Assembly (NCBI RefSeq): GCF_030680395.1
Contig: NZ_JAUXVR010000005.1
Location: forward strand, 1 to 64,000
Reading direction: 5' to 3'
Length of the DNA: 64,000 nucleotides
Source of the DNA: Methylobacter sp.
Lineage (GTDB): Bacteria > Pseudomonadota > Gammaproteobacteria > Methylococcales > Methylomonadaceae
Part shown: positions 928 to 16,900 of the stretch, piece by piece
How positions within the stretch are numbered: position 1 is the stretch's first letter
Layout: the number at the start of each line of letters is the position of its first letter
Notes under the pieces: generated by a model
Seen by the model: the letters and a program-made list of their open reading frames with translations, nothing else
What the model was told of the DNA's origin: nothing
The model's database searches: none
Made by a program: the position numbers and the translations under genes

Positions 928-1660
928 TCGCAAGCAAAGTGAACCTCAACCGGTCGGCTTGCCACAAAACCATAGACTCTATTGTATTGGAGATATACAT
1001 GGTCGTTTAGATCTGCTGCAGGAAGTGCATCAAAAGATCGCCAGTGATGCAGCGGCTTTTGATGGCATCAAGATCCTGGTTTACCTGGGCGATTACATCG
1101 ACCGAGGCCTACATTCCAAGCAAGTTATCGATTGCTTATCAGAAAATAATTTTCCTGAATTTAAGACAGTGTTTTTATTGGGTAATCATGAGCAAGTGTT
1201 GTTGGAATTTTTAAATAATAAAGATCCTTCAATTGCCCATGAGTGGTTTAGGTTTGGAGGGTTACCGACCTTGGCAAGTTACGGCGTTACCGTTAAGGGT
1301 ATACCTACTACAAAAGATTTAGAGCGATTACGGGCCGAATTTAAAGAAAAAATGCCTGCTGCGCATTTAGCTTTTTTTGAACGTTTAGTCCTTAATTACG
1401 AAATAGGCGGATACTTTTTCGTGCATGCCGGTATCAGGCCTAAAATTAAACTGCATCGCCAACGTCCCGAAGATATTCTGTGGATTCGCGAAGAGTTTTT
1501 AAATAGCGATGTGTTTCACGGCAGAGTGATCGTGCATGGGCATTCAATCACCGATGAACCGGAAATTCGCCATAACCGTATCGGTTTGGATACCGGGGCG
1601 TATGCATCGGGAAAATTGACATGCGCTGTTTTTGAAGAATTAGCGTGCCGATTTTTATAA
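893..1660 (+). CDS. PPP-family metallophosphoesterase (serine/threonine phosphatase-like)
   Basis: The 255-residue product carries the metal-binding motifs of the PPP phosphatase family in order: GDIHG at residues 33-37, GDYIDRG at 66-72 and GNHE at 97-100, then FVHAG and VHGHS further on. It should be a two-metal cytoplasmic phosphatase acting on phosphoproteins or small phosphate esters (known for the family). The open frame begins with a TTG that overlaps the preceding gene by 35 bases; no better start lies before GDIHG. Its position directly behind an EPS kinase gene suggests it may oppose tyrosine or serine phosphorylation in EPS control, which is inference. Confidence 0.8.
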   Translation: MTLKAIFKKILNRKQSEPQPVGLPQNHRLYCIGDIHGRLDLLQEVHQKIASDAAAFDGIKILVYLGDYIDRGLHSKQVIDCLSENNFPEFKTVFLLGNHEQVLLEFLNNKDPSIAHEWFRFGGLPTLASYGVTVKGIPTTKDLERLRAEFKEKMPAAHLAFFERLVLNYEIGGYFFVHAGIRPKIKLHRQRPEDILWIREEFLNSDVFHGRVIVHGHSITDEPEIRHNRIGLDTGAYASGKLTCAVFEELACRFL

Positions 1661-1710
1661 GATACGGTTTTCATTGATGTTCCTCAAGTTTAACCAGGCC
1701 AGCTACCCTA

Positions 1711-1741
1711 GACCTTCCAGGTTTTAAAAACCTGGAAGGTC
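1711..1741. repeat. Perfect 31-base inverted repeat in the gap after the phosphatase gene
   Basis: Two 15-base arms, GACCTTCCAGGTTTT and its exact complement, flank a single A. The palindrome lies in the 285-base gap between the phosphatase and the methyltransferase-like gene. It could act as a bidirectional transcription terminator, although no long T run follows on the + strand, or it could be a dispersed palindromic repeat. I see no gene in the rest of this gap. Confidence 0.55.
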
Positions 1742-1946
1742 TTGCTTGTATCGTCCCGGCAGGTTTGGCGCGTGATCAGGAACCAAGGCCCACGCTTGGG
1801 AGGCTGCGGATAGAGTTCGCGTTGCCGGCGGCAATAGTTTCGATCGGTTCGCAAGTAGTCGCTAATACGTGGTCAAAACCGGCTCAAAACGGGGCTTCTG
1901 TCGCGGCCTTGAATATTTTAAAGATAGCGCTACTGGAGATAACACT

Positions 1947-2960
1947 ATGAAAAACAGTCTGGACGAACTCAAAAATATTGTTCAGGCAATTTTGAATCCT
2001 GAAAAACAACCCAAAGACCTGCTCCCAGAAGCTCACGCCTTGAGGGACTTGTTCGAGACATGGACGAATTTTCAAATCGATCCCGACGGAGGAATCGGTG
2101 CGGGAGAAACCCGCTTGGATAGCGGCCTTGCCATTTCGCCGACTACAGCAGCCATGTGCATAAGAGAATTATTCAGGACGACTGCATTCATCCGGGGACA
2201 CGGAGATGCAATCCGGGAGGCTATCAATCCTGACCGGCCGGTTCGCGTGCTTTATGCCGGTTGCGGCCCCTATGCCTTGCTGGCAGTGCCGCTGATGACG
2301 GTGTTTTCAAAAGAGCAGGTCGTTTTTACGCTATTGGACATCCATCAGCAGTGTCTCGACGACGCAATGAAACTGATCCAATCACTGGGTCTTTCCGGTC
2401 ATGTGGAAGAATGCCTTTGCGTCGACGCCACCACATACCGGATCCCGACGGATAAAAAGCCGGACATCATCGTCAGCGAAACTATGTCCGTCGCTCTGCA
2501 TAACGAACCGCAAGTCTCAATAGCCCGAAACCTGCTTTCTCAGGCTCCGGAAGCAAAAATGATACCCCAGCAGGTCAGCGTAGAAGCCTGTTTGTTAAAC
2601 GGGGCAAAAGAGCATGTTTTTATGCCGGCGGATTTTGTCGGCGAATTTCCTGAGCCTGAACGGGACAGGATTTACCTCGGAAAAATATTCGAACTGGATG
2701 CCGCCAATATAAAGCGCTGGGAAGAAATCGACGGTGACCGTCTTCCCGCGGGCAAAGTAAAAATTCCATTACCCCTGGAGACGCGCTACCGGCCGCATCT
2801 ATTGACCAAGATCACCGTTTACGGCGAAACCTGTTTGGATGATTACGATTGCAGTCTGACTATGCCGAAGCGCCTTCGCGGAGAGATTAAGGAAGGGGAT
2901 GAATTGCAATTCTATTACCAGTTTGGAAATCATCCGGAACTACGGTATAAAACGGCTTAA
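1947..2960 (+). CDS. Class I SAM-dependent methyltransferase-like protein
   Basis: The 337-residue product has a Rossmann-type SAM-binding motif, VLYAGCGPYALL, followed by an acidic strand end (TLLDIH) and a segment SETMSVALHNEP that resembles the double-E region of protein arginine methyltransferase-like folds. The ATG at 1947 is chosen because GGAG lies about 9 bases upstream; an upstream in-frame extension exists but looks non-coding. The substrate is unknown. It converges on the sulfotransferase gene on the other strand, so its link to the peptide locus to the right is uncertain. Confidence 0.6.
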   Translation: MKNSLDELKNIVQAILNPEKQPKDLLPEAHALRDLFETWTNFQIDPDGGIGAGETRLDSGLAISPTTAAMCIRELFRTTAFIRGHGDAIREAINPDRPVRVLYAGCGPYALLAVPLMTVFSKEQVVFTLLDIHQQCLDDAMKLIQSLGLSGHVEECLCVDATTYRIPTDKKPDIIVSETMSVALHNEPQVSIARNLLSQAPEAKMIPQQVSVEACLLNGAKEHVFMPADFVGEFPEPERDRIYLGKIFELDAANIKRWEEIDGDRLPAGKVKIPLPLETRYRPHLLTKITVYGETCLDDYDCSLTMPKRLRGEIKEGDELQFYYQFGNHPELRYKTA

Positions 2961-3014
2961 TCCTAAAAGAGCCGTTGGCGCGATTGGAGGATTTGGCCGA
3001 TGTCTTAATGGATT

Positions 3015-4025
3015 TCACCGCGTTTGCCGATTTACAAGGTTGGAGGTGTGATTCAAGCGCAACTGCTCCAGCTTCTCGTAATAAGGATAGACCGTTGCGC
3101 ATAATTCAATGTTTGCGTCATGCGCCGCTGGTTCCGGATCGCCGGTGAATTTTGCCGCATTTTTCGAATGCGAACCGGAGCGGTTTTTCATGGCCTCCAA
3201 TTCTGCCGGAGAGGGCGCTATTGAAAACAAATCCAGCAGGTCGGTCCAAACAATTTGCGGCAACTGGTTGTAGTTCAGCAAAATCAACTCATCCGCCTGA
3301 TCGCAAGCTGCCTTGAAAAAATGCCTCAGCACTTTCACGGAATATTTGTCCAACTCACCCGGCTCCAGTGGCTCGGAATCCAAGTCCAGCATAGCAGTAT
3401 CTACCAGGCCCGGCACCATTTGCGGCCCTCTTTGCCGTTGATGGGACGCCAATACCTCTTCCGGTTTTCGGTACATAAAAATAAAAGGCGTACCGGGAAA
3501 AGCCTTGCGAAACAGCGGGAGGCTTTTTATATGCCAGCTATCGAGTTTAATGAAAAAATGGTGTTCTTCCGCGAAACGTCTTTGTCCTAATGCACAAACC
3601 AATTGCTGCAATGTTTTTTTCGCGACGCTTTGTTCAGGTTGGGCATGGTAGAGGCTTAGATAGGAATCGATAATCGGCGGTTCCGACATTACGACGCAGT
3701 TGGACAGGGAGGCGAACAATTGCGACAGCAGCGTCGAACCGCAACGAGAGGTATGGAAAATGAAAGCCGTTGGCGCCATCGAGTTCTCGAATGCATTCAG
3801 TGCATTGAAAGACGTTTGTACGCAGAGCCTTTTATCCTGATTGAGACTGGAGACACTATCGTAAAAAAAAGGTTCGCTGAAGCGTTTTTCGCCGAAGAAG
3901 CGCCACCACAGTTTATCATTCCTGGCTACAACCGGATACCAGCCCGACAGGGATGCCAATTGTTCAAACGGCACATCCTGACCGCGAAGCAATGAGCGCT
4001 CGTTGGCGGAAAAGTTTTCATTCAT
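3015..4025 (-). CDS. Sulfotransferase family protein (first of two)
   Basis: The protein (336 residues from the ATG ending at 4025; 345 from an upstream TTG at 4052) has a PAPS-binding loop, FHTSRCGSTLLSQ, at about residues 90-102, and later a FMYRKPEEVLASH segment resembling the 3'-phosphate-binding region. It should transfer a sulfuryl group from PAPS to a hydroxyl or amine. It follows the beta-hydroxylase-like gene directly: the TTG start would overlap it by 20 bases, the ATG lies 7 bases beyond its stop. The two form a leftward operon diverging from the tail-collar/peptide operon. A hydroxylase followed by a sulfotransferase suggests hydroxylation and then O-sulfation, which is inference. 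Confidence 0.75.
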   Translation of the reverse strand: MNENFSANERSLLRGQDVPFEQLASLSGWYPVVARNDKLWWRFFGEKRFSEPFFYDSVSSLNQDKRLCVQTSFNALNAFENSMAPTAFIFHTSRCGSTLLSQLFASLSNCVVMSEPPIIDSYLSLYHAQPEQSVAKKTLQQLVCALGQRRFAEEHHFFIKLDSWHIKSLPLFRKAFPGTPFIFMYRKPEEVLASHQRQRGPQMVPGLVDTAMLDLDSEPLEPGELDKYSVKVLRHFFKAACDQADELILLNYNQLPQIVWTDLLDLFSIAPSPAELEAMKNRSGSHSKNAAKFTGDPEPAAHDANIELCATVYPYYEKLEQLRLNHTSNLVNRQTR

Positions 4026-4032
4026 GAGGTTG

Positions 4033-4737
4033 TTACTGATTTTGAATGGCAATCAATCTTGCGGCCATCTGTTTTGCAGGCTCATTATTCATGGCGATTA
4101 AGCTCGAGATAATCGCCCCCACGTTGTTATCGTTAATCGAAGCATCGCCGTATTTGGGCGGAGCGTCCGGTACAAAACCGGCGTCCAGAAAAACCTTTTC
4201 TAGCCAAGGATTGACGATGCAATCCAGCATCAGGTGGATTCTTGGATTTTTACTTTCGTTGTTTACGCCATGCAGGCAATTGGCATTCAAATACCAAGTA
4301 TTGCCGGCGGAAAAGTGAACCTCTTCATCTTCGATTGTGAAGCAAATATCCGGTGTAGTGATGATTGGAACATGCAGCCGCGCCATGCCGTCTTCGAATG
4401 AGGTTCCCTTATCCGTATGCATTTTAATGCGGCTTCCCGCCCCCAGAGCCATCAACCGAACCGAAGTTTTTTCGCACTCGAACGTATCGATGACTCCCTG
4501 AAAATAAGGGCAACGCCTGAGGATGTCCGTATCCTCGTAATGCATATCAGATAAGGAAAGAATGTGCTCCTGCCTTCCATTCAAAGAGCGTAGCGGGACA
4601 CAATTCCATGCGTTTTCATAGGCAGCGGCATTGAAATGTTCGATCCATTCTGTTTTCCTTATTTTTTTCAGGTCCTTATTTAAGCCGCAGGCATCGAAAA
4701 AGAAGGGTAATTTCAAGTATCTGGTTTTATGAATCAT
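4033..4737 (-). CDS. Aspartyl/asparaginyl beta-hydroxylase-like 2-oxoglutarate/Fe(II) oxygenase
   Basis: This 234-residue protein shows the iron and 2-oxoglutarate ligands of the aspartyl/asparaginyl beta-hydroxylase family: KMHTDKG around residues 105-111 (His107, Asp109), LHVPI at 121-125, LHGVNN at 155-160 (His156) and RIH with Arg166. Family members hydroxylate the beta carbon of Asp or Asn in peptides and proteins. The gene is the first of a leftward two-gene unit with a sulfotransferase and is divergent from the collar/precursor operon across a 249-base gap. The precursor core contains one Asn and one Asp, so it is a possible substrate, as are the collar proteins. Confidence 0.75.
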   Translation of the reverse strand: MIHKTRYLKLPFFFDACGLNKDLKKIRKTEWIEHFNAAAYENAWNCVPLRSLNGRQEHILSLSDMHYEDTDILRRCPYFQGVIDTFECEKTSVRLMALGAGSRIKMHTDKGTSFEDGMARLHVPIITTPDICFTIEDEEVHFSAGNTWYLNANCLHGVNNESKNPRIHLMLDCIVNPWLEKVFLDAGFVPDAPPKYGDASINDNNVGAIISSLIAMNNEPAKQMAARLIAIQNQ

Positions 4738-4891
4738 CGAGTAAGCCTTTTTTATAATGTATTTTCATCGATTCTTCCCAAGACTGACAGAAAATTTATT
4801 CGGGCAGCGTCTTAATTCGCCATTTTCTTGGCTTGGGGCTTTCGCCTCGCTCAGGCTCATGTGTCATTAGACAAGGCTTCTTCTTGTTTTT

Positions 4892-4909
4892 TTAACAATA
4901 ATTTGTTAA
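4892..4909. promoter_or_regulatory. Candidate operator: TTAACAA palindrome in the divergent intergenic region
   Basis: Two perfect 7-base arms, TTAACAA and TTGTTAA, are separated by TAAT. The site sits in the 249-base gap between the leftward oxygenase/sulfotransferase pair and the rightward collar/precursor operon, about 80 bases before the first collar start. Its size and symmetry fit a dimeric repressor or activator site that could control both operons. No regulator gene is seen nearby, so this is inference from position and symmetry. Confidence 0.35.
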
Positions 4910-4919
4910 CGTCCCACCT

Positions 4920-4952
4920 GCTGCGCAAGCAGCTCGTTCGTTTCAGAACGAA
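4920..4952 (+). promoter_or_regulatory. Two small hairpins in the leader of the collar operon
   Basis: A GCTGC-GCAA-GCAGC stem-loop (4920-4933) is followed by TTCGTT-TCAG-AACGAA (4937-4952). Both lie in the likely 5' leader of the first collar gene, whose AGGAA ribosome-binding site is at 4976-4980. They may stabilise the mRNA or act as a translational control element. No T run follows either, so a terminator is less likely. Confidence 0.3.
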
Positions 4953-4986
4953 GTTTAAGGTTATATCTCAACCATAGGAAGCGATA

Positions 4987-5538
4987 ATGAGTGATTATTT
5001 TTTAGGCGAAATCAGGGCTTTTGCTTTTGGCTTGGTGCCTCAAGACTGGCTACCCTGCGAAGGCCAAATACTTCAGGTTCAACAATATACGGCGCTTTTT
5101 TCATTGATTCGTAATGAATTTGGCGGCGATGGGCAAAAGACTTTTGCTCTGCCCGATTTAAGAGGCAGAGTCATCGTAGGCTATGGTAGATATACCGATA
5201 CAGACGGTCAAATATATACCTATAGTTATGGCAATGCAGGCGGTGCTGAAACGGTCGCTTTAACTTCGGCGCAAATACCGGCTCATAATCATTATTTAAT
5301 GGGCAGTACGGCTGCGGGCAATACCGGAAATCCCAACGCTAATTATATCTCCTCTTGGGGGACTAGTACTCCAGTACCTCAATCGCAAAACCTATATGCC
5401 GCACCGGGCACTGTAGTGCCCTTGAACCCAGGCAGTCTGGAGGCGACAGGCGGCGGGCAAGGGCATAGTAATGTACAGCCATTCTTGGCCATCAATTACT
5501 GCATCGCTACTGTTGGCATTTATCCTGCCCGCAACTAA
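4987..5538 (+). CDS. Phage tail collar-domain protein, MdpB-like (paralogue 1)
   Basis: This 183-residue protein begins with the collar-domain signature: GEIRAFAFGLVPQDWLPCEG, then FGGDGQKTFALPDLRGR. A PAHNHY segment lies mid-protein and the C-terminus returns to a conserved QPFLAINYCIATVGIYP. Proteins of this type occur in phage tail fibres and, outside phages, as 'microcystin-dependent protein' homologues of unknown role. There are no other phage genes here, so it is not simply a prophage remnant. It is the first gene of an operon that continues through two paralogues into the peptide precursor and its enzymes. Confidence 0.85.
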   Translation: MSDYFLGEIRAFAFGLVPQDWLPCEGQILQVQQYTALFSLIRNEFGGDGQKTFALPDLRGRVIVGYGRYTDTDGQIYTYSYGNAGGAETVALTSAQIPAHNHYLMGSTAAGNTGNPNANYISSWGTSTPVPQSQNLYAAPGTVVPLNPGSLEATGGGQGHSNVQPFLAINYCIATVGIYPARN

Positions 5539-5560
5539 ACCTAAGAATTAGGAAAAGATT

Positions 5561-6124
5561 ATGTCAGATTATTATGTAGGTGAAATACGCGCCATGGCAG
5601 GCCTGGTGAGCGGGAACGCGCCCCAAGGCTGGAGAAAATGCGACGGCTCATTGCTTCCAGTGTCTCAATTTCAAGCCTTGTTTGCATTGCTTGGCACGAC
5701 TTACGGTGGCGATGGAGTGAATAGCTTTGCGCTGCCTGATTTAAGAAGCCGTTTACCCATGGGGAATGGGCAGGGTGTTGCGGGCGCAACGCAGCTCACC
5801 AAGAGAACCTTAGGTGAAAAAGGCGGTACTGAATCCGTCGCCTTAACGGCTGCGACGATGCCCGCGCATACGCATAATTTAAATACCGCAGGTGTGGATG
5901 CAACCAGTCCAACCGTGGCAAGCAATGTCACCTTCGCCAATGTCACGGGACAAAATGTTACTTATCTCAATGCGACCGTTACCGGAGGTACGGCAACCCA
6001 AGTGAATCCAGCCCCAACCACGGTTGGCAATGCCGGTGCCGGCCTGTCGCACGCGAACATCATGCCCGGCATGGGCTTGTATTACATCATCGCCACCAAT
6101 GGCTCTTTTCCAACTCAAGCATAG
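5561..6124 (+). CDS. Phage tail collar-domain protein, MdpB-like (paralogue 2)
   Basis: This 187-residue paralogue starts MSDYYVGEIRAMAG and carries GTTYGGDGVNSFALPDLR, PAHTHNL and a C-terminal MPGMGLYYIIATNG. The central part is a Thr/Asn/Val-rich stretch (TVASNVTFANVTGQN) like the beta-structured shafts of tail fibres. AGGAAAAG lies just before the ATG and the gene follows paralogue 1 by 22 bases. The conserved ends and divergent centre suggest that the three copies differ in what they bind. Confidence 0.85.
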   Translation: MSDYYVGEIRAMAGLVSGNAPQGWRKCDGSLLPVSQFQALFALLGTTYGGDGVNSFALPDLRSRLPMGNGQGVAGATQLTKRTLGEKGGTESVALTAATMPAHTHNLNTAGVDATSPTVASNVTFANVTGQNVTYLNATVTGGTATQVNPAPTTVGNAGAGLSHANIMPGMGLYYIIATNGSFPTQA

Positions 6125-6133
6125 GAGATAATC

Positions 6134-6718
6134 ATGGATGCATTCATAGGCGAAGTTCGCGCTTTCCCATATTCTTATATTCCACAGGGCTGGTTTGCTT
6201 GCGATGGCAGCTTGCAAAGCATCGCTAGCTATCAAGCCTTATACTCCCTTTTAGGCACGACCTATGGTGGCGATGGAAGAGCGACTTTTGGTTTGCCCAA
6301 TCTTCAGGGTAGAACCGTGATAGGCATAGGCCAAGGGCCTGGACTTCAAGATATCACCAAGGGTGAAAAGCTTGGCGCCGTCCACGTGGCATTAACATCG
6401 ATCAATCAATTGCCTGCCCACAACCATGCCATAGTAGAAGAAATTATTCCACCTTCCACAGGTACGTCTAATATGACGGCAAAACCAACCGTCGGCAGCT
6501 CCTGGCTGTCACGTTGTATGCAAGTCACCGGTCGGACTGCTGCAAATACAATAAATTCTTATGTTAAACCGGCGGCAGGGATATCGGCCGACACGCCTTT
6601 GCATCCCAACAGCATAGGTTATAATGCCGGCGGCTCTCAAGGCCATGAGAATAGACAACCTTATTTGACCATGGTCTATTGCATCAATTACGATGGCGTA
6701 TATCCTATTTCCTCATAA
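6134..6718 (+). CDS. Phage tail collar-domain protein, MdpB-like (paralogue 3)
   Basis: The third copy (194 residues) has GEVRAFPYSYIPQGWFACDG, GTTYGGDGRATFGLPNLQGR, PAHNHA and a C-terminal QPYLTMVYCINYDGVYP. An AGGAG ribosome-binding site precedes the ATG. Its TAA stop shares a base with the ATG of the peptide precursor (TAATG at 6716-6720), so the two are probably translated in a coupled way. This tight link is the best evidence that the collar proteins and the modified peptide belong to one system. Confidence 0.85.
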   Translation: MDAFIGEVRAFPYSYIPQGWFACDGSLQSIASYQALYSLLGTTYGGDGRATFGLPNLQGRTVIGIGQGPGLQDITKGEKLGAVHVALTSINQLPAHNHAIVEEIIPPSTGTSNMTAKPTVGSSWLSRCMQVTGRTAANTINSYVKPAAGISADTPLHPNSIGYNAGGSQGHENRQPYLTMVYCINYDGVYPISS

Positions 6719-6879
6719 TGAAAATCATGTTAAAAACTGAAACTATTCAAGAAAAAACTGCCTACAAGAAGCCGTGGGTTACACCTGAGATATGCGATCA
6801 GCAGATCATGGATGTGACTCAGGGGTGTAAAAATACGGCTTGTGGAGCTGAGGATGCTTTTACTGGTACTGGTTCTTGA
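6718..6879 (+). CDS. RiPP (lasso-like) precursor peptide, 53 residues
   Basis: The peptide starts at the ATG overlapping the collar 3 stop (a second ATG at 6727 gives 50 residues). The leader has a YxxP motif, Tyr16-Lys-Lys-Pro19, the element bound by PqqD-like recognition proteins in lasso systems, and Thr34 placed two residues before Gly36. The predicted core, Gly36 to Ser53 (GCKNTACGAEDAFTGTGS), has two Cys, and its only acidic residues are Glu45 and Asp46, core positions 10 and 11. Known lasso rings close at 7-9; starting at Cys37 would put Glu45 at 9. The C-terminal Ser fits phosphorylation by the adjacent HprK-like kinase, as described for paeninodin. Confidence 0.75.
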   Translation: MKIMLKTETIQEKTAYKKPWVTPEICDQQIMDVTQGCKNTACGAEDAFTGTGS

Positions 6880-7811
6880 TTAAAGCTTTGATTAAACAGC
6901 ATGCTTATTTGATCTCGGGCTTGAGCGTCGCCTCGGAGATAGAATTATCCGGAGTGACGTCAAGTCCGACCATCGCTTCGAAACCTCAGGTCTGTATATT
7001 CAAGGGCAAAGTGCCGGAAAGCTTGCCTGAAGCAAGCGCCACCGGAGTTAACTGGGCGCTTACAAAAGATACTTTCTTGCTGCAAATTCCCAGAATCGCC
7101 AGGTTTTACGTTTCTCAGGGTTCTGAAATTATCGTAGAACCCCGCCCTAGTGTAGATGACGCTGCAATCGTGCCGTTCTTGCTGAGTACCGCATTTGGCG
7201 CATTGCTGCATCAGCGCGGCGAATGCGTGTTGCATGCCTCGGTTGTCAGCCATGAAAATAAAGCCGTCGCCTTATGCGGAAACACAGGCATTGGCAAATC
7301 CACCCTGTGCGCCGCATTATGCTTTGCAGGTTACCGTTTCATCGCCGATGACATGGCCTTGATTCGATTAGATAAACAGCAAAAGCCAAGCGTCCTGGCC
7401 GATAGCCGTCAGCATCGTTTATGGCAGGATGCGATACATCTGCTTGGCTTGAATGAACGCAAGGGCGAGCCGGTGCGCGATTGCATTGAAAAATACCATA
7501 TCGCCCCGGTATCGGGCATCGTCACCGATTCTATTACGCTTAAAACCATCATCTTGCTTAAACGAGCCGAGGTGAGAGATCAGCTACCGGAAATCAAACG
7601 GCTGCGTGTCGCCGATGCTGCGGCGCTATTGCGCAATGAAGTTTTCCGCCCCAATTTAGCGAGCAAAATGGGCAGAGATGCCGATTTATTTCAACAAATC
7701 GCGCAATTATTAAAACACGTGGACGTTTTCATGTTGACGCGTCCCCAGGAGATCAACCAACTGGATGCCGTGGTTAAACTGGCGCAGCAAACCATCGAAG
7801 AGTTGGGTTAA
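6876..7811 (+). CDS. HprK-related kinase (lasso-peptide K-type / HPr-rel-A type)
   Basis: This 311-residue protein begins at a TTG that overlaps the precursor stop (TTGA at 6876-6879), implying coupled translation. It has a P-loop GNTGIGKST at residues 135-143, preceded by LHASVV, and an acidic ADDM at 157-160, the order seen in HPr kinase C-terminal domains. In paeninodin-type lasso loci such kinases phosphorylate the C-terminal Ser of the precursor, and the precursor here ends in Ser. Related kinases beside PqqD-like proteins are also known as the HPr-rel-A system, whose substrate is less clear. Confidence 0.8.
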   Translation: MIKALIKQHAYLISGLSVASEIELSGVTSSPTIASKPQVCIFKGKVPESLPEASATGVNWALTKDTFLLQIPRIARFYVSQGSEIIVEPRPSVDDAAIVPFLLSTAFGALLHQRGECVLHASVVSHENKAVALCGNTGIGKSTLCAALCFAGYRFIADDMALIRLDKQQKPSVLADSRQHRLWQDAIHLLGLNERKGEPVRDCIEKYHIAPVSGIVTDSITLKTIILLKRAEVRDQLPEIKRLRVADAAALLRNEVFRPNLASKMGRDADLFQQIAQLLKHVDVFMLTRPQEINQLDAVVKLAQQTIEELG

Positions 7812-8653
7812 TGACGGGTTCCATCGTTTGGCTGGCTTCTTATCCAAAATCAGGCAGTGTATGGATGCGTTTGCTTATCGCCAATCTGATCACCGCTTCA
7901 AAATACGATTTCAATCGTTTGGATTTGATTTGGCGAACACCTCATTCGCGGCATAATTTTGAGCGCATCAGCCTGATCGATTCAAGCCTGTTATTGCAAG
8001 ATGAGATCGATGAATTGCGCCCCAGCGTGACCGAAGCCATGGCGCAGGAAGAAACCGGCAATGTATATTTTTGGCTGCACGATGCTTATCAAATCCTTGC
8101 AAACGGACAGCCTTTATCGGGAAAAGCGCCGACCAGAATCGCTTTTTATATGCTGCGCGATCCGCGCGACGTGGCGGTTTCGTTTGCTTATCACTCAGGT
8201 GTTTCAGTCGATGAAGCGATCACGGTGTTGAATAATCCCAAACAATTTCTTTGCCTGCAAAAAAAGCGCTATCAGCCGCAAGTACATCAAATGATTGGCG
8301 ATTGGAGCCATCATGTTGCAAGCTGGACCGAGCAACAAGATGTTCCTGTCATACTGATACGTTATGAAGATTTATACCGTGAACCTATTCCTATCTTACA
8401 AAATGTCGCCGAATGGCTTGGAATTAAAGGCTCCCAAACTGCATTGGAACAAGCGATTCGACACGCTGAATTTAGCGAATTGCAGCGCCAGGAAAAGCAA
8501 TATGGATTTAGCAATAGACCTGTTCAATCAACTCAACCTTATTTTCGCTCCGGCAAAGCAGGCGCCTGGAAAGAAGTTTTAACATTACAGCAACAACGCT
8601 TAATCGAACAAAAACACCATGATATGATGGTACGGTATGGTTATTTAGATTGA
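7811..8653 (+). CDS. Sulfotransferase domain protein (second of two)
   Basis: This 280-residue classical sulfotransferase has a PAPS 5'-phosphosulfate loop at the N-terminus, SYPKSGSVWMR (residues 10-20), and a 3'-phosphate-binding LRDPRDVAVSF (about 115-125). Its ATG overlaps the kinase stop by one base (TAATG). It lies between the kinase and the PqqD-like gene, so I infer a tailoring role: sulfating the precursor (Thr, Ser or a hydroxylated residue) or the collar proteins. It is not closely similar to the sulfotransferase at 3015, so the two are not a recent duplication. Confidence 0.8.
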   Translation: MTGSIVWLASYPKSGSVWMRLLIANLITASKYDFNRLDLIWRTPHSRHNFERISLIDSSLLLQDEIDELRPSVTEAMAQEETGNVYFWLHDAYQILANGQPLSGKAPTRIAFYMLRDPRDVAVSFAYHSGVSVDEAITVLNNPKQFLCLQKKRYQPQVHQMIGDWSHHVASWTEQQDVPVILIRYEDLYREPIPILQNVAEWLGIKGSQTALEQAIRHAEFSELQRQEKQYGFSNRPVQSTQPYFRSGKAGAWKEVLTLQQQRLIEQKHHDMMVRYGYLD

Positions 8654-8659
8654 GGTCTT

Positions 8660-8923
8660 ATGTTTGAGCAAAAATTAAAGCGCGCCGATGATTTATTGAG
8701 TGCGGCGCTCGATGATGAATTATTGATGATGAACATAGAAAAAGGCAGTTATTACAGCCTGAATTCAGTCGGCGCGCGTATTTGGGAGTTATTGGAAAAC
8801 CCCATGGCTTTCGATGAACTCGTAGCGAGATTACTGGAAGAATACGATATTTCCGCCGAAACCTGCCGACTTGAAGTAGAAAACTTTGTCCATGCCTTAA
8901 GGGCAAGAGGGCTGTTGACTTAA
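8660..8923 (+). CDS. PqqD-like RiPP recognition protein (lasso B1-type)
   Basis: This 87-residue protein has the winged-helix PqqD fold pattern: a first part with MMNIEKGSYYSLNSVGARIWELLE, then a second helical part (LLEEYDISAETCRLEVENFVHALRARGLL). Stand-alone PqqD-like proteins bind the leader peptide, here probably through its YxxP motif, and deliver it to the B2 protease and the cyclase. It closes the rightward operon 6 bases after the sulfotransferase. In paeninodin-type loci B1 and B2 are separate proteins; the likely B2 partner is at 13993-14529. Confidence 0.85.
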   Translation: MFEQKLKRADDLLSAALDDELLMMNIEKGSYYSLNSVGARIWELLENPMAFDELVARLLEEYDISAETCRLEVENFVHALRARGLLT

Positions 8924-8938
8924 TAGGGCATAAGTATC

Positions 8939-8970
8939 TATATAGCTTTTTGCATTATAAATACAATGAG
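8939..8970. repeat. Degenerate half of the 'cataagtatcta' palindromic repeat
   Basis: The sequence GCATAAGTATCTA and the following TTTTTGCAT resemble the left arm of the perfect 27-base-arm palindrome at 33913-33971 (GCATAAGTATCTA...TTTCTGCAT), but the right arm is lost. It starts 15 bases after the PqqD-like gene. The two related repeats bracket the stretch from the end of the B1 gene to the start of the exporter gene. Confidence 0.4.
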
Positions 8971-9148
8971 TTACAGGTCATCCTGGCTCCCTCTCCTGCT
9001 GGAGAGGGTTGGGGTGACGACTGCACGGGCAGATATTTGCTCCTCGGCAACTACTTAGGGAAGTGACAATAAATACTGTCCCAGCTATCGTTCCCACGCT
9101 CCGGCGTCGCTGCCACTAAATTTAAACGCTGGTTCCCAAGCTCCAGCT

Positions 9149-9398
9149 CTCGTCGTTATACACATCTCGACGTAGGCCGGAATAAGCCTGTCCGCGCGTT
9201 AAGCGCAGGACTGGTGTTTCCGGCGCTCCGATTGCCGGAAAAGCTTCCGCTCCTGCTCACGCTCCTTACCTACATCCATGTAGGCAACATCCGCCCTTGC
9301 TGACGCCGGGCGGACTTATTCCGGCCTACATCCAGGGCCGCCGTTTCAGCTTTCATGCCTAAATGACGGTCTTGAACAGACTTGTGTATAACGACGAG
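9149..9398. repeat. Outer inverted repeat enclosing a MITE-like element
   Basis: Two exact 16-base arms, CTCGTCGTTATACACA at 9149-9164 and its complement at 9383-9398, enclose the MITE-like element at 9173-9328. The structure suggests one small element inserted inside another. The region between the PqqD-like gene and the cyclase gene (8924-9433) holds only repeats like this, plus copies of a 'gttcccacgct' motif at about 9091, and no gene that I can see. Confidence 0.55.
9173..9328. mobile_element. MITE-like element, copy 1
   Basis: The element is bounded by terminal inverted repeats TAGGCCGGAATAAG and CTTATTCCGGCCTA and contains a central CCTACATCCATGTAGG palindrome. A second copy lies at 57029-57190 in the opposite orientation. 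About 58 bases, running from the 'attgccggaaaagc' part to 'catgtaggcaac', match that copy with a single difference. It codes for nothing and fits a non-autonomous miniature element mobilised in trans. Confidence 0.65.
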
Positions 9399-9433
9399 CG
9401 ACCGGACAGAAAACCGGCTTTGCGTAACATCGG

Positions 9434-11263
9434 TTAGTAATGTTGTTGAATATAACGGGCGGCACGAAAAATACGCAATAATGCTAACGATTCGCTAGCT
9501 GTATGATCGGAACGAAGCAATTTCTCGATGGCTTTTAAATCAAAAAGGTTTGAGATATTCGGATGATGATGGAGTTCGTCCAGCCAAGCCAAAATGGATT
9601 GGCGTTGTTGGGCCGGCAAGCCCGGAACTTCGGGAAAAGGCGTAAGTTTATTATGGCGCCAGCGGATTTCTTCGGGCAGCACATGAGCCATCGCGTCGCG
9701 GAAAACCCGTCTCTTAAAGCCGCCGCGTAAAAATAGATGGCTAGGCAAGGATAAAGAAAGTTCGATAACGCGTCTATCGAGCATGGGGAAACTAACGGCC
9801 AAACCATATCTTGCCGCCATTAATGCCCAGCGTTCGGCTCGTCTGCTTAAATGTGGACTATTTAATAACTCGAATCGATTTAATGTTGCATTTGAGCCTA
9901 TTCCTATTCCAAGTCCGAAGCTTTTTTGCATAAATTCAGGCCGTAAAAGTTCCGGAACGACATTCGTAATCGATTGATGGTTTTTTCTAAAAAAGCGGCG
10001 TAGCCAAAATTTTAAATCGTCGGAAAGCAGATAGTTGAGTAATTCGCCTTGGGTTATATGAAGGAACGACCAATGGCGTGTTTTAGTTAGCGCTTGGTAT
10101 TCTTTTAATAAATAATACCAACGACCATTGAGCAAGGCTTCAGCCAAAGCGCCGCGGCCATTGAAGGTTGCGCCTTCGTCTCCACCCCACCCTGATAGCA
10201 GCATGGAGGCGCCGTTGCGTGCCGCATCGGCACAAACCCGTATGTCGGGCTCTGTCAAATCATGGGGGAACAATTGATCGCAATCCATGTTAGGCATGAG
10301 CAATGCATTGAAATCGGTCAGTGTAATTGGCTTCCAAATCAAATCCGTTTCTTGTTTTAACACCGCTTCGACAAAAGGACGTTCGTCTTCCTCATCCTGA
10401 AGCGTTGATAGGAAAGAATAAGCCAATAAAGGCTGTTTCTTTTCCCGTAAAAGCCGAGCGGCCAGAATAGTGATCGCCGAGGAATCCAATCCGCCGCTAA
10501 GATGGGCTGCAACCGAACCTGCGATGGGTAAACGGCAACGCACGGCCTCGGTAAAGGTTTCGGCAAGGGCGCTAGCTGCTGTTTCTGGGGTATGACGGCT
10601 TTTGCCGGCATTGGAAAAATCAAGTTTCCAATAAGCTTCGGAACGTATGGATTGTGCCGAGACCTGTAAAAAATGCGCCGGCGGCAGTCTTGAAATGTCT
10701 CGAAACAAAGAGCGTTCCGGTCTGGCAAAAGTCCCTAACAATTCATCGGCAAGATAGCTTTCATCGAGTTGACGTAATGCAAAGCCTCCGGCATGTAAGG
10801 CCCGTGGTAATGAGGCAAAGGCAAAATCAACGTTCTCTTTTTGTGTCGTGAAAAGCGGACGTATGCCCATGGCGTCACGGGCGCAGAGCAGAGAGCGGGT
10901 TTGCGGATTCCAGGCGGCAAAGGCAAAATCCCCCAGGATTTTGTTTAAGCCCTCCGTTCCCCATTGCTGTAAAGCATGCAGCAATAAATCATCCTGTTGA
11001 GCCGAAACATTAAGCGCCGCAGCTAACTTATCCGGCTCATCAAGTCTGCAATCCGCGGCTAATAAAAGACCATTTTCACTTTTGACGATTTCAATGGCTT
11101 TTGGGCTGGCAAAGTCAAGAATAGCCAGAGCAAGCGAATCTTCGATTATATGTGCAATTTGTGGGGTGAGGCCCGGTTCAATCATGGATTGAACCATAAG
11201 GTCAAGCCGGCTTTTTTCGGCAGCCCGGCCGTTAAGATGATAAAAGCCGCAGATTAAGCGCAT
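9434..11263 (-). CDS. Asparagine synthetase-like lasso cyclase (C protein)
   Basis: This 609-residue protein has an N-terminal glutaminase-like domain starting MRLICGFYHLNG, with Cys at position 5 rather than directly after Met, and a synthetase domain with the ATP-pyrophosphatase motif SGGLDSS at 256-262 and GWGGDEG later. In lasso systems the homologous C protein adenylates the acidic side chain and joins it to the freed N-terminus. The first-domain style ('GFYHLNG') resembles paeninodin-type cyclases. It follows the ATP-grasp gene by 3 bases on the minus strand, convergent with the PqqD-like gene across a repeat-rich gap. A plain asparagine synthetase is less likely given B1, B2 and the precursor. 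Confidence 0.8.
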   Translation of the reverse strand: MRLICGFYHLNGRAAEKSRLDLMVQSMIEPGLTPQIAHIIEDSLALAILDFASPKAIEIVKSENGLLLAADCRLDEPDKLAAALNVSAQQDDLLLHALQQWGTEGLNKILGDFAFAAWNPQTRSLLCARDAMGIRPLFTTQKENVDFAFASLPRALHAGGFALRQLDESYLADELLGTFARPERSLFRDISRLPPAHFLQVSAQSIRSEAYWKLDFSNAGKSRHTPETAASALAETFTEAVRCRLPIAGSVAAHLSGGLDSSAITILAARLLREKKQPLLAYSFLSTLQDEEDERPFVEAVLKQETDLIWKPITLTDFNALLMPNMDCDQLFPHDLTEPDIRVCADAARNGASMLLSGWGGDEGATFNGRGALAEALLNGRWYYLLKEYQALTKTRHWSFLHITQGELLNYLLSDDLKFWLRRFFRKNHQSITNVVPELLRPEFMQKSFGLGIGIGSNATLNRFELLNSPHLSRRAERWALMAARYGLAVSFPMLDRRVIELSLSLPSHLFLRGGFKRRVFRDAMAHVLPEEIRWRHNKLTPFPEVPGLPAQQRQSILAWLDELHHHPNISNLFDLKAIEKLLRSDHTASESLALLRIFRAARYIQQHY

Positions 11264-11266
11264 GAA

Positions 11267-12520
11267 TTAGCCTTTAATTTCGATATATTGGGAGACAATT
11301 TTGGGGAATAGGGTATGACCTAACGGGACATCGTCAATCAGTTGATGGTGAAAAAAATCAGGGCCCGAGTTAGTTTCAATCAATACAGGTCCATCAGGCG
11401 TAATGGCAACATCCCAACCTAAAAAAACAAATCGGGAAAAGGCTTGTTGATGCGCACGCTTGACGAGTCCGAGTGTTTCCGGCCAAAAAGGAATGGTCAC
11501 TTCGGCGATTAGCGCGTGCGTTTCCGGGTGCCGTTCAACAGGTTCTCTTTTAGGCGTAAATGCGCATATGACGCGGCCCTCTTCATCTAATTTGCATAGT
11601 ATGGAAAATGACCGATTGGCAAAGCCCCCCCAGGGCAGCGTCATTAAGTGGGTAATCACATGCACTTGTCCGTTGGATTCAATTCCGGTAATAATCCGGA
11701 AATCGACTAAGCTGCCATCGGATAAACAGTTTAATTGAGGATGGTTGCTTAATACAGGTTGAACCAAGCAGTCTCGTAACAGCCATGATTTTGCTAATTC
11801 TTCAGGAGTTTGTGTTTTTCCTTGATTATCATGATACAGGTTTTCTCGTAACCGCCATTGGTTTGCGCCGCTTCTCTGGCTGCCGGTGATATCTTTTACC
11901 CAGATGCAATCTTTATCCGGTATAAATCGTTCATCAGGTGTGGTTTGTCGGCCATTTTGGTAAATAGCTAGCGTTGGAATGTATGGTAAATCATACCGTT
12001 TGCAGATCACCGCAAAGTGGCCTTTATCTTGTACGTCATTGTTGTCGGCGCCGTTGCGATCATTCAAAATTCGCAGGATATTATTTTCACTCCAATAAAG
12101 GTAGTCTTTGGCCCAGGCGCGGCGATTCGGTTCGTAAAGTCGATAGACTATATATTGAATGGGCATTACGTTTTCAGTCAACGCCAAGGCATACATATGG
12201 CCGACACGGGCTAAGGAGATGAATAAGTTTTGCGGGCGCTCCAAGTGGGTGAAATGAAAAATCGTATCAATTAAAGCGCCTATCGGCCAGCTGAAAGTCA
12301 TGATGGAACGCATGATATAACGTTTGATGCGGGATAAATGCGCGTATTCTTCCATGCGTCCAAGTGCGCGCAATTGCCGCATGTTGCTTCCCTGTCCGCT
12401 AGGTAGCATGAAAGGAAAGCCTCGTTTGCTTAGATTATAAAATTTTGCAAATAGCGGCCAACGTTGATGCAGAGTTCGACTTAACCGGAATGGGCGACTT
12501 TGGGGAGTATTTTTAGTCAT
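11267..12520 (-). CDS. Sugar-transfer-associated ATP-grasp family protein
   Basis: This 417-residue protein matches the ATP-grasp fold found next to sugar-transfer genes. There is a Lys-containing segment around CIWVKDITGSQRSG, a central DFRIITGI, and a C-terminal metal-binding segment GPVLIETNSGPDFFHHQ with the Glu and Asn expected for Mg-ATP. Such enzymes form amide or ester bonds through acyl phosphates. Its stop is 3 bases from the cyclase start, so the two are one transcript. ATP-grasp proteins of this group occur in both EPS clusters and lasso-like loci; the substrate here is unknown. Confidence 0.7.
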   Translation of the reverse strand: MTKNTPQSRPFRLSRTLHQRWPLFAKFYNLSKRGFPFMLPSGQGSNMRQLRALGRMEEYAHLSRIKRYIMRSIMTFSWPIGALIDTIFHFTHLERPQNLFISLARVGHMYALALTENVMPIQYIVYRLYEPNRRAWAKDYLYWSENNILRILNDRNGADNNDVQDKGHFAVICKRYDLPYIPTLAIYQNGRQTTPDERFIPDKDCIWVKDITGSQRSGANQWRLRENLYHDNQGKTQTPEELAKSWLLRDCLVQPVLSNHPQLNCLSDGSLVDFRIITGIESNGQVHVITHLMTLPWGGFANRSFSILCKLDEEGRVICAFTPKREPVERHPETHALIAEVTIPFWPETLGLVKRAHQQAFSRFVFLGWDVAITPDGPVLIETNSGPDFFHHQLIDDVPLGHTLFPKIVSQYIEIKG

Positions 12521-12619
12521 TAATTGCTACGGGCTGAGGATTGGGGCGACGATATCAACAATTGATCGCAAAGCGAGAGTGTTCGAATGCGCCGGAAGGA
12601 CAGGTTATGGGAATAAGCT

Positions 12620-13480
12620 TTATAGCATAAATTGTTCAATCTCGGATTTGGACAAGCCTGTCGCTTGAGTAATGATGTCGATAGCAGTGCCTGCTTTCAG
12701 CAAATTGAGCGCTATGGCTCTCGCGGCTTTATCCATGCCCTGGGCTATACCCCGCTCCATGCCTCTCTCTTCCGCCGAAGCAATCTTGCTTCCCACTTCA
12801 GCCAAAGCTTGCATGCGCACTTCATAAATTAAACGCTCGTCCTCCTCAAACATGCGGTCTACCGCTTCGATCGCTTTAACAATCGCCCAGTCTTCGACGA
12901 GTTCTTTGGGCACATGATTTTTGCCCAACTTGTCCACCTTGGTTAAAAAAGTGACCCATCTATCCAACGCGCTGCTGATTTGCTGATACGATTTGGTAAA
13001 TTTTTTCAACTCGATGTAATGGAGCTCGAAAATGTCGTGCAACTTATCGTCTTTGCCGGTTGCGACATTAATGATCTTATAGAGATTATGCAGTTCTTGA
13101 TTGTCGGGTATGAAATTGAAATCCAGGATATTGATGCTGATGGTCTTTTTGAGCTCCTTGAACATCATGCCTTCGCTGAGCTGTTCGGTGACGAGTTTTG
13201 CCCAGTAGTAAATGGCGCGTTTATCGAAGTGATAATCTTCGCTGATCTGCATTTCGACGTTGAACCAACGTCCGTTTTCGCCTTTGGCTTTAATGTCGAG
13301 TACCGGCATCTTGCCGGCTTGATAAGCGGCGAGATTGTAGGGATTTCTTAATTCGATTTCGACGACTTGCTCTTCTTTTGAAACAATGGCGTTGATGAGC
13401 GAGATTAAAAGGTCTTTTTTTTCTTCGCTGCCAAACAGCTTCTTGAAGGCAAAATCGACTCTGGGATTTATTCTGCACAT
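12620..13480 (-). CDS. Rpn/PD-(D/E)XK-family nuclease-transposase
   Basis: This 286-residue protein starts MCRINPRVDFAFKKLFG and has an endonuclease core with Asp62 (PVLDIKAKG) and Glu76-Met-Gln78 (NVEMQIS), the D...ExQ variant typical of Rpn recombination-promoting nucleases (PDDEXK_2). The C-terminus repeats 'ERGMERGIAQGMDKAAR', also typical. It lies between the B2/acetyltransferase pair and the ATP-grasp/cyclase pair on the same strand, so it probably inserted into a once-continuous operon. It appears intact. Confidence 0.85.
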   Translation of the reverse strand: MCRINPRVDFAFKKLFGSEEKKDLLISLINAIVSKEEQVVEIELRNPYNLAAYQAGKMPVLDIKAKGENGRWFNVEMQISEDYHFDKRAIYYWAKLVTEQLSEGMMFKELKKTISINILDFNFIPDNQELHNLYKIINVATGKDDKLHDIFELHYIELKKFTKSYQQISSALDRWVTFLTKVDKLGKNHVPKELVEDWAIVKAIEAVDRMFEEDERLIYEVRMQALAEVGSKIASAEERGMERGIAQGMDKAARAIALNLLKAGTAIDIITQATGLSKSEIEQFML

Positions 13481-13591
13481 AGTTCACGGCCTTATTGTTG
13501 GGTCATTTGGGGATTTGCTTTCCATCGCACATCAAATTTCGGCACATTATCTTCTCATTCTCAGGAGGTTGCCGTAAAAGTCAAAACAGAA

Positions 13592-13992: not shown

Positions 13993-14529
13993 TTATTCCG
14001 AAAACTGCCGGCTCATGGTTAACAAACGGGCGGAGACGAAACAGCCCACCACGGTAAATTGATTGAAGCTCATGCCTCCCGTGACTCGCACTCGGCCGGC
14101 AGCCACCCAGGCATGCGCAGCCAGCGTTACATCTTCGGCATTGCGATTGACACCGAAGAACAAGCTGTACGGAACGCCGTAAAGCCCGAGCAAAATCCTT
14201 GCTGTTATAGCTTGAGGAAAACAGTTCGATTTCCAGGGCGTGTAATTTGCCGCCATCCGCACTACTCTTGAAATGGATAAGGCTCTGGCTTCAGCGCGGG
14301 CATCGACGAGCGGCACCCAAGGGGCAATTCCCTCATGCGCTCCAAGCCGGAGCGCTAAATGCCTGAATGGAATTGTCAGGATAACGAAACGGCTTATCCC
14401 CAGCAATAACCAGACGGGAAGAAACCATACTTTCTCAAACCACGGTCTGTGCGCGAAACCCCGCACTTTACGAACAAGTGTCGAAAAAATCGTCGCGGGA
14501 GTGAATGTCCGGCTATCCGGGAGAGACAT
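13993..14529 (-). CDS. Lasso-peptide B2-type transglutaminase-like leader protease
   Basis: From the ATG ending at 14529 (AAAGGA lies 8 bases upstream) the protein has 178 residues. The C-terminal half carries the B2 papain-like pattern: SNCFPQAITARILL with the catalytic Cys103, AAHAWV with His139, then VTGG and FTVVGCF, an arrangement I associate with paeninodin-type B2 proteins. The third triad residue is not obvious, since no Asp directly follows HAWV. B2 removes the leader peptide with B1 help before cyclisation. A longer frame start would overlap the acetyltransferase gene by 47 bases and is less likely. Confidence 0.8.
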   Translation of the reverse strand: MSLPDSRTFTPATIFSTLVRKVRGFAHRPWFEKVWFLPVWLLLGISRFVILTIPFRHLALRLGAHEGIAPWVPLVDARAEARALSISRVVRMAANYTPWKSNCFPQAITARILLGLYGVPYSLFFGVNRNAEDVTLAAHAWVAAGRVRVTGGMSFNQFTVVGCFVSARLLTMSRQFSE

Positions 14530-14533
14530 TTGA

Positions 14534-15025
14534 TTAATCCTTTGCTTGACCAAGCCAGACCATCTCCAAGTTAGCGCCATCGTTATTTTTAACTTGAAAC
14601 CCCGAGGACAGATAAAGATGCTTGGCCTGCATATTCTGCGGGTCTACCGAGAGCTTGATCGGTTTGTTCGCGCCTGACGCTTCGGTTTGCAACGCTTGAA
14701 TCAAGCGGCGGCCATGCCCCCGATTGCGTTCGTGCGGTAAAAAAGCGATGTAAACCAGTCTGATGGCTTCATCGCCCTTATCTATGACCAAGTAACCTAT
14801 GGCTTCACCTTTTTTTTCAACGATTGAATAGTCGGCATCAGGAAATTGCATGCGGTAGCCGGTTTGCTGCGCTTGGAGCTGCATTTGGATCAGGTTATCG
14901 ATGAGTGCTTCAGCCAAACCGAACTGTAACAAATCTTCTCTCGTTGAACGATAAAGTCTTTCGACAAAGGCCGTATCCTGCTCGACTTCAGGGCGGATGT
15001 TCAAATCTGTATTGTTGATGTTCAT
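14534..15025 (-). CDS. GNAT-family N-acetyltransferase
   Basis: This 163-residue protein shows the acetyl-CoA-binding signature of GNAT enzymes, VYIAFLPHERNRGHGRRLIQ, followed by IKLSVDPQNMQAKHLYLSSGF. Its stop is 4 bases before the B2 start, so the two genes form an operon. Acetyltransferases accompany some RiPP loci as tailoring or self-protection enzymes; here the peptide's Lys could be a target. Since GNATs are widespread, an unrelated role is possible. Confidence 0.8.
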   Translation of the reverse strand: MNINNTDLNIRPEVEQDTAFVERLYRSTREDLLQFGLAEALIDNLIQMQLQAQQTGYRMQFPDADYSIVEKKGEAIGYLVIDKGDEAIRLVYIAFLPHERNRGHGRRLIQALQTEASGANKPIKLSVDPQNMQAKHLYLSSGFQVKNNDGANLEMVWLGQAKD

Positions 15026-16823: not shown

Positions 16824-16900
16824 AGAAGAGGCGCTGTTCGAGTCGAGAGCGACTCTCCGGAACAACTAACATTCAGCCCGAGACAGACGCTGAGCATGAA

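Follow-up and report, generated by a model that had tools for sequence, protein, structure and literature searches.

A lasso-type peptide gene cluster with a recurrent tail-collar partner in a Methylobacter contig

The first 64,000 nucleotides of contig NZ_JAUXVR010000005.1 of Methylobacter sp. (hereafter the window) carry a gene cluster in which three tail-collar proteins are encoded next to a small precursor peptide and its predicted modifying enzymes. This is a known kind of cluster, a kinase-type lasso cluster, with a new and recurrent partner, the collars. Our preferred reading, to which we give a probability of about 0.57, is that the two modules, the kinase-type lasso cluster and the collar trio with its own tailoring partners, work as one unit. 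What supports it in the sequence is gene content, recurrence, clustering in descent, module logic, the leader motif, the C-terminal Ser and the kinase residues. The link between collars and lasso genes is well supported; the role of the collars we infer. A first-pass annotation of the window had described seven rightward genes, running from 4987 to 8923 with near-zero gaps, as a RiPP (ribosomally synthesized and post-translationally modified peptide) operon. The run is as described, down to two overlaps of 1 nt and one of 4 nt among its open reading frames (ORFs). Its modified-peptide genes can be given a more definite name, lasso-type, and the cyclase, ATP-grasp and B2-type genes had been missed; the cluster spans about 1.9–15.0 kb (Table 1).

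The first-pass annotation had expected a genuine pairing to recur in related genomes, and it does, with a proximity far above chance. Among 163 loci with collars or the lasso set, 22 have both, 123 have collars only and 18 have lasso genes only (an earlier count, which defined 'lasso' slightly differently, gave 20 lasso-only loci). The 22 include near relatives (L089/L091, L086/L148) and loci that share a genome (L187/L188, L203/L204). Two rows were dropped before counting (L183, on the same contig as L043, and L202, 100 bases), and L184, with collars, an AsnB-type gene and a precursor at a contig end, is not among the 22 but is labelled lasso in the trees described below. Collars are present in 36 of the 151 nearest genomes. 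The nine kinase hits above 140 bits come from six of these genomes, each of which also has collars, and four of these hits have a collar within 5 kb. A sample of 398 genomes from the phylum includes 32 with the kinase (E up to 1e-20), 85 with collars (E up to 1e-15) and 16 with both (P = 1.6e-4; 3.9e-4 when the window's own genome is left out). At least 10 of the 41 kinase hits in this sample lie within 10 kb of a collar, compared to 0.17 expected, and at least 8 of 39 do so after removal of the hits of the window and of genome G335. Across 337 genomes of the class of genome G313, the kinase occurs in 21, collars in 39 and both in 13 (2.4 expected, P = 1e-8), and 8 of 42 kinase hits lie within 10 kb of a collar, against 0.28 expected; in both samples the expected counts rest on rounded genome sizes and a hand count of collar loci. 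Six of these eight near hits, in five genomes, were new to the study, and all carry the kinase, sulfotransferase 1, PqqD and AsnB genes plus one to three collars. Recurrence of the pairing in such distant bacteria suggests that the two parts work together.

Alternatively, the lasso cluster might be an ordinary one of the kinase type that shares a recombination hotspot or accessory island with an unrelated collar module and has no functional link to it. We regard this as rather unlikely. It would account for the existence of each module alone (the 123 and 18 loci above), for gene order and strand that vary widely across the 22 loci, and for the transposase inside the window's cluster and the polysaccharide-type region alongside it. 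It is harder to square with a collar–kinase proximity about 28 and 58 times expectation in the two samples, with lasso genes that flank the collars on both sides in 6 of 16 loci, and with two aspects of descent: the newly added lasso trios all join the lasso-rich collar lineage, and the window's collar and lasso genes share one best relative locus among those compared.

A careful tree built on 77 concatenated collar trios groups 10 of the 13 lasso-linked rows with one other row (ultrafast bootstrap, 99; Shimodaira–Hasegawa-like approximate likelihood ratio test, SH-aLRT, 97). In a quick tree of 89 rows, a group of 21 rows (SH-aLRT 100) takes in 15 of the 17 lasso rows, including all five new lasso trios (L204–L208). 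Loci with fewer than three collars (L187, L188, L191, L203 and L105) are in no tree. Mapped on the tree, the lasso label requires 8 changes, compared to 15.8 in shuffles (0 of 500 as low); a single origin of the lasso-linked trios was looked for in the same comparison and not found. The collar partner tends to be inherited with the lasso cluster.

Among the selected loci compared for best relatives, L205, from a genome of another class, is closest for collars 1–3, the kinase, sulfotransferase 1, the PqqD-like protein and the AsnB-type cyclase (44–60% identity). The lead of the enzymes is large, the kinase being 44% identical to that of L205 versus 27–29% to those of same-genus loci, and the concatenated collars of the window and L205 pair in the 89-row tree (SH-aLRT 95). 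The hydroxylase, sulfotransferase 2, the protein labelled MT in Table 1 and B2 are 61–89% identical to counterparts in the same-genus loci L089, L091 and L136 (B2, 61–71% to L091 and L136; MT, 84% to L091). The plainest reading is that the lasso cassette and the collars would have been exchanged together inside a resident frame.

Several observations weigh against a functional unit. Collar-free kinase-type lasso loci exist (18, some on short contigs). One of them (G000:C13, L132) lies in the window's own genome, and the same gene order is found without collars on a plasmid of Hyphomicrobiales UR115 (L147), the whole record of which has no collar; hence, the cassette can persist without collars. 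Most of the collar loci compared (123) are without lasso genes. As for descent, six of the 21 group rows lack the cassette, L070 and L185 fall outside the lasso-rich group in both trees, and L186 is outside it in the 77-row tree and missing from the 89-row tree. For the collars, L205 is only slightly ahead of the next locus (182 versus 167, 177 versus 165 and 158 versus 153 bits), other loci are the best relatives for ATP-grasp (L147) and GNAT (L123), and the loci compared for this purpose were a selected set. The L205 precursor is the best match of the window precursor among the small ORFs compared, at a phmmer E value (0.022) that is weak and under the HMMER inclusion threshold. Finally, no signal peptide is apparent by eye in the collars.

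The genes around collars and lasso enzymes sort into two sets. The family profiles behind these counts derive from loci near collars, with a possible bias towards collar neighbours, and the hydroxylase profile misses other oxygenases in lasso loci, such as a 2-oxoglutarate (2OG)-Fe(II) oxygenase annotated in L086. A hydroxylase or sulfotransferase 2 gene is present in 7/22 collar-and-lasso loci, 19/123 collar-only loci and 0/18 lasso-only loci. The corresponding counts are 18, 64 and 0 for GNAT, 12, 52 and 0 for DUF6916, and 2, 7 and 0 for MT. Sulfotransferase 1 shows another pattern (20/22, 0/123 and 9/18), and 24 of its 26 homologues in an earlier set of loci adjoin an HprK gene; ATP-grasp is found in 5/22 collar-and-lasso and 5/18 lasso-only loci. 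Given that the hydroxylase and sulfotransferase 2 accompany the collars and sulfotransferase 1 accompanies the kinase, the likeliest substrates of the first two are the collars or their partner, and that of sulfotransferase 1 is the peptide. An earlier suggestion that the collars may be modified by the hydroxylase and the sulfotransferases thus fits the hydroxylase and sulfotransferase 2 but not sulfotransferase 1, which tracks the kinase. One could go further and suppose that the collars are also substrates of the lasso kinase and sulfotransferase 1, in a single protein-modification system with no peptide pathway. The kinase, sulfotransferase and collar genes do stand in one run; however, the distribution of sulfotransferase 1 (none in collar-only loci, half of lasso-only loci) and a C-terminal Ser that belongs to the precursors make this very improbable.

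In the single-collar operons L106, L110 and L111 of the same genus, the order is GNAT–hydroxylase–collar–sulfotransferase 2, and DUF6916 is a conserved small gene. We also considered a hidden second peptide as the substrate of the hydroxylase and sulfotransferase 2, and rejected it: among small ORFs near the collars of 15 collar-only loci, DUF6916 was the sole recurrent coding candidate in the groups listed, the other recurrent ones being antisense to DUF6916 or confined to the near copies L106, L110 and L111. Seven loci (L011, L030, L041, L106, L110, L111 and L112) hold collars, hydroxylase and sulfotransferase 2, some with MT and GNAT, and no lasso gene was found in them; their hosts are Gammaproteobacteria and a Bacteroidota metagenome-assembled genome. 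In L105, a Peripla_BP_6 substrate-binding protein gene (5410–6561) lies between PqqD and collar, a family seen in 5 loci. The genomes of L213 and L214 (G576 and G689) have five kinase hits and several collar trios; two of these trios have a PqqD-like gene alongside and no kinase in the 20 kb examined.

Elsewhere the trio often has a different neighbour. A giant ORF, defined by its length (1200 aa or more, within 3.5 kb), accompanies 59/123 collar-only loci versus 1/22 collar-and-lasso loci. Three giants were examined by Pfam: an immunoglobulin-repeat autotransporter, a protein sorted by the type IX secretion system and a DUF4347/cadherin protein. Strict exclusion between giant ORF and lasso cassette, suggested by 0/8 at first, was given up at 1/22, and we claim depletion alone; the exception, L188, has a giant ORF beside both collars and lasso genes and is a further point against our reading.

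Turning to the peptide part, products of the B1, B2 and C genes are all over the Pfam cut-offs for PF05402, PF13471 and PF00733, respectively. The kinase has a P-loop and, in alignment A1 (the window, L043 from the same contig as G335:C406, and six others), retains H120, G135, G138, G140, K141, S142, D158 and D159, among them the catalytic H, K, D and D of the paeninodin type (H120, K141, D158 and D159). It scores under the cut-off for Pfam Hpr_kinase_C (25.5 versus 33.3 bits) and is not assigned to HPr-rel-A (HprK_rel_A 56.6 versus 200; 31.8 versus 35; TIGR04352/TIGR04353). The PqqD-like protein matches lasso_PqqD_Bac at 78.0 bits (cut-off 80), and the best NCBIfam match of the cyclase is lass_lactam_cya, a lasso isopeptide cyclase family (315.5 bits, E 7.8e-94, cut-off 525). 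Since B1, B2 and C are all present along with an HprK-like kinase, we read the peptide part as a predicted kinase-type, paeninodin-like lasso cluster.

The 53-residue precursor, MKIMLKTETIQEKTAYKKPWVTPEICDQQIMDVTQGCKNTACGAEDAFTGTGS, fits this reading in its leader and its last residue. The motif WVTPEI occupies residues 20–25 (an overlapping second candidate, YKKPWV, is at 16–21), and Thr34 stands nine residues past it at the expected −2 place, an arrangement that corresponds to the lasso leader YxxPxL with Thr(−2), Trp replacing Tyr. The same distance from leader motif to Thr was seen by eye in 12 of 21 other precursors. Ser53 is the C-terminal residue, as expected for the paeninodin type. 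Candidate precursors, chosen by leader motif and in some cases by eye, were obtained for 18 of 23 collar-linked loci; picking by leader motif gave none in L187, L190, L204, L206 and L207. All but one of the 18 end in Ser, that of L148 ending in Gly. Thr(−2) together with Asp or Glu at core position 7–9 was found in 15 of 22 precursors scored, compared to 6.9 in tail shuffles; this count covers the window and related loci but not L086, L091, L203, L205 and L208. By eye, the acid is at position 9 in L203 and 8 in both L205 and L208.

The ring of the window peptide is a weak point of a lasso assignment. Counted from Gly36, the first acid of the core is Glu10 rather than a residue at 7–9, which places this precursor among the seven of the 22 that deviate; only 8 of the 13 collar-linked precursors scored follow the ring rule; and the NCBIfam lasso cut-offs are not reached. 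With the first acid at core 10, we call the system lasso-type and leave the ring open. A product other than a lasso, namely an unthreaded modified peptide made by lasso-like enzymes (for example, one with a 10-membered ring, or a disulfide-bearing phosphopeptide), is the less probable outcome, although one to be taken seriously. With a cut after Thr34-Gln35, the first acid falls at core 10/11; Cys37 and Cys42 are present; and the cyclase and PqqD scores just mentioned would be in keeping with it. On the other hand, B1, B2 and C homologues are all there, the precursors nearest by eye, those of L205 and L147, have their acid at core 8 and 9, and a core starting at Cys37 (Thr at −3) would place the acid at position 9. 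Overall, the cluster would encode a knotted small peptide that is probably phosphorylated and sulfated.

Among collar-free loci, L132 (G000:C13:1-20000) contains two HprK-like genes, PqqD, AsnB and sulfotransferase genes, and a precursor that ends in Cys and has Asp at core 9. Three collar-free kinase-lasso loci have two or three precursor-like ORFs in tandem (L134, 2916–3672; L193, 13962–14790; L194, 12278–12958).

From collar 1 to the PqqD-like gene, the spacing is gaps of 22 and 9 nt, overlaps of 1, 4 and 1 nt, and a gap of 6 nt. The stop codon of collar 3 and the precursor ATG have one base in common, 4 nt are shared by the precursor stop and the kinase start, and the kinase and sulfotransferase 1 genes overlap by 1 nt. 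Shine-Dalgarno-like runs of 4–5 precede the collars and PqqD, and runs of 3 the kinase and sulfotransferase 1; in the 15 nt examined upstream of the precursor start the run is 0, which fits coupling to the collar 3 stop. The translational coupling of collars to precursor proposed at first pass was seen in the window only. A precursor immediately adjoins a collar in 8 of the 18 loci with a candidate, so that adjacency is frequent, and the arrangement differs: the precursor overlaps a collar in the window, is divergent from collar 1 in six loci (L086, L148, L184, L185, L186 and L208) and is convergent with a collar in L203. In L205, a GNAT gene separates the two. Promoter-like matches lie inside collar 3 at 6598–6625 and 6665–6694, and the scan that produced them (12 matches versus 7.0 in shuffles, sd 2.7) means that there may be an internal promoter within this gene.

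The collars resemble the short tail fibre protein gp12 of phage T4. All have the PF07484 domain and an HxH motif; H96, H98 and H171 are invariant in 47 collar rows and presumably recall the metal sites of T4 fibres. Collar 3 matches the T4 short tail fibre 1ocy weakly (E 0.005), and the four PDB matches up to E 1 are all short tail fibres. The three, of 183–194 aa, are different proteins, and across loci they keep their order as distinct lineages (45 changes versus 103 when shuffled, 219 sequences). Such ordered, distinct paralogues suggest a hetero-oligomer, and the trio is probably a single one. A remnant origin of the collar genes, from a prophage or an extracellular contractile injection system, is highly doubtful, even though PF07484 is a phage tail domain, collar relatives occur in 253 phage records and PF04984 sheath matches were found in 4 of 10 collar-and-lasso genomes. 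Those sheath matches are on different contigs from the collars or are separated from them by more than 400 kb, and the window's own genome has no PF04984 match. Moreover, trios occur in different phyla with GNAT, DUF6916 and giant ORFs as neighbours, and the first-pass observation that there are no other phage genes agrees with a Pfam search of the 19 proteins encoded at 217–18304, in which no phage family other than the collars was over its cut-off. A defence system was also considered and rejected, as none of ten cluster proteins matched a PADLOC model.

From these features, a mechanism can be sketched in which the two modules form one unit. The PqqD-like protein would hold the precursor via its WxxPxI leader motif while the HprK-like kinase phosphorylates the C-terminal Ser53; sulfotransferase 1 would sulfate the phosphorylated or another residue, the B2-type peptidase would cleave after Thr-Gln, and the AsnB-type cyclase would close the macrolactam. 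The collar trio, like T4 short tail fibres and probably hetero-oligomeric, would have the hydroxylase, sulfotransferase 2 and GNAT as its own modifying enzymes. The lasso cassette would take the place of the giant, probably surface-exposed protein often found beside trios elsewhere, and the collar complex would be the outer partner of the peptide, either a receptor-binding carrier or a knob by which the modified peptide reaches a surface. We infer each chemical step in this organism, as well as the hetero-oligomer, the sulfation and the contact between collars and peptide. A more specific version, which we offer tentatively and with low confidence, is that a phage-derived receptor-binding hetero-trimer carries, displays or delivers the phosphorylated, sulfated lasso peptide, in effect a fibre tip armed with a ribosomal natural product, related trios accompanying giant surface proteins instead.

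The HprK-like kinases PadeK, ThcoK and SyanK of paeninodin-type clusters have the C-terminal Ser of the linear precursor as their phosphorylation site, and in clusters with such a kinase this Ser is highly conserved (PMC9266682). BsfK, with residues H-G-G-G-K-S-DD and the leader YxxPxL, acts on Ser3 and not on the C-terminus (PMC10368454). The present cluster shares with this type (and with BsfK and pseudomycoidin PsmK) the kinase residues His-Gly-Gly-Gly-Lys-Ser-Asp-Asp, B1, B2 and an AsnB-type C protein, a [YW]xxPx[ILV] leader and a C-terminal Ser, the last setting it apart from BsfK. It differs in that most leaders have Trp for Tyr, a sulfotransferase is added, a collar trio with its own tailoring genes is present and the ring rule is broken. 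Firmicutes lasso clusters with a putative sulfotransferase gene beside the lasso genes have been described (Zhu et al. 2016c, cited in PMC8498205). The gene is at the cluster start there, whereas here, in Proteobacteria, it is directly behind the kinase. We know of no test of sulfotransferase function in either cluster type. The canucin cluster encodes a hydroxylase, CanE, an Fe/2OG enzyme acting on a lasso precursor; the hydroxylase here follows collars, not lasso genes. Non-phage tail-collar proteins, which we take to be those called MdpB type, have the same ordered trio, GNAT and DUF6916, but their neighbour is often a giant ORF rather than a lasso cassette. T4 gp12 shares the collar region and HxH motif, whereas here there are three different collars and no phage context. 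A Pontixanthobacter table lists clusters of tail fibre, lasso B2, PqqD, AsnB-type, Asp-hydroxylase and sulfotransferase genes that co-occur with halotolerance, in passages without discussion of them (PMC10040529). Our literature search, which covered few subscription papers or preprints, found no paper on a collar–lasso pairing, none with both 'lasso peptide' and 'tail collar' or with two of 'tail collar', 'HprK' and 'PqqD', and no description of a function for the widespread non-phage collar trios.

The features of the cluster are collected in Table 1. MT has no Pfam match at E 0.01. The transposase is flanked by the ATP-grasp gene on one side and the B2 gene on the other, as though the cluster had been split open there. 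To the right, 15453–34080 is a long polysaccharide-type region (O-antigen ligase and sugar transferase by Pfam), in which an ABC-transporter-like ORF (32114–33928, by eye) could also export the peptide. As the source genome encodes a PmoA/AmoA-type protein (PF02461, E 1.6e-130), the host bacterium is probably a methane oxidiser.

Table 1. Features of the collar–lasso cluster in the window
Feature	Position	Strand	Remarks
MT (unnamed protein, methyltransferase-like by eye)	1869..2960	+	collar neighbour in some related loci
Sulfotransferase 2 (Sulfotransfer_3)	3015..4052	-	28.3 bits, cut-off 27; predicted collar-module tailoring gene
Aspartyl/asparaginyl beta-hydroxylase (Fe/2OG)	4033..4737	-	PF05118 57.8 bits, cut-off 22.6; predicted collar-module tailoring gene
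Collar protein 1 (T4 gp12-like)	4987..5538	+	PF07484 90 bits, cut-off 24; position p1
Collar protein 2	5561..6124	+	PF07484 80.7 bits, cut-off 24; position p2
Collar protein 3	6134..6718	+	PF07484 89.2 bits, cut-off 24
Lasso-type precursor	6718..6879	+	53 aa from ATG; leader motif, Thr34, C-terminal Ser53
HprK-like lasso precursor kinase	6876..7811	+	catalytic-residue alignment; putative TTG start
Sulfotransferase 1	7811..8653	+	PF00685 (Sulfotransfer_1) 89.5 bits, cut-off 22; lasso-module gene adjoining kinase
PqqD-like RiPP recognition element protein (lasso B1)	8660..8923	+	PF05402 76.2 bits, cut-off 23.4
Asparagine-synthase-like lasso cyclase (C protein)	9434..11263	-	PF00733 113.8 bits, cut-off 21
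ATP-grasp protein (ATPgrasp_ST)	11267..12520	-	PF14397 94.9 bits; recurrent accessory
PDDEXK_2 family transposase	12620..13480	-	PF12784 226.8 bits; not part of the system
Transglutaminase-like leader peptidase (lasso B2; Transglut_core3)	13993..14580	-	PF13471 77.6 bits, cut-off 26
GNAT acetyltransferase	14534..15025	-	PF00583 43.4 bits; collar-module gene, far side of lasso genes

The role of phosphorylation on lasso peptides is, according to a review, still to be unravelled. The recurrent pair described here makes that role and the role of the collar trio both testable in one operon. The module logic, in turn, predicts substrates for uncharacterised enzymes, the hydroxylase and sulfotransferase 2 going with the collars and sulfotransferase 1 with the kinase. 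If the collars bind the peptide, they would be, to our knowledge, the first tail-fibre-type proteins found to serve a modified peptide. If they merely share its target, the collars would still be a guide to the site of action of the peptide.

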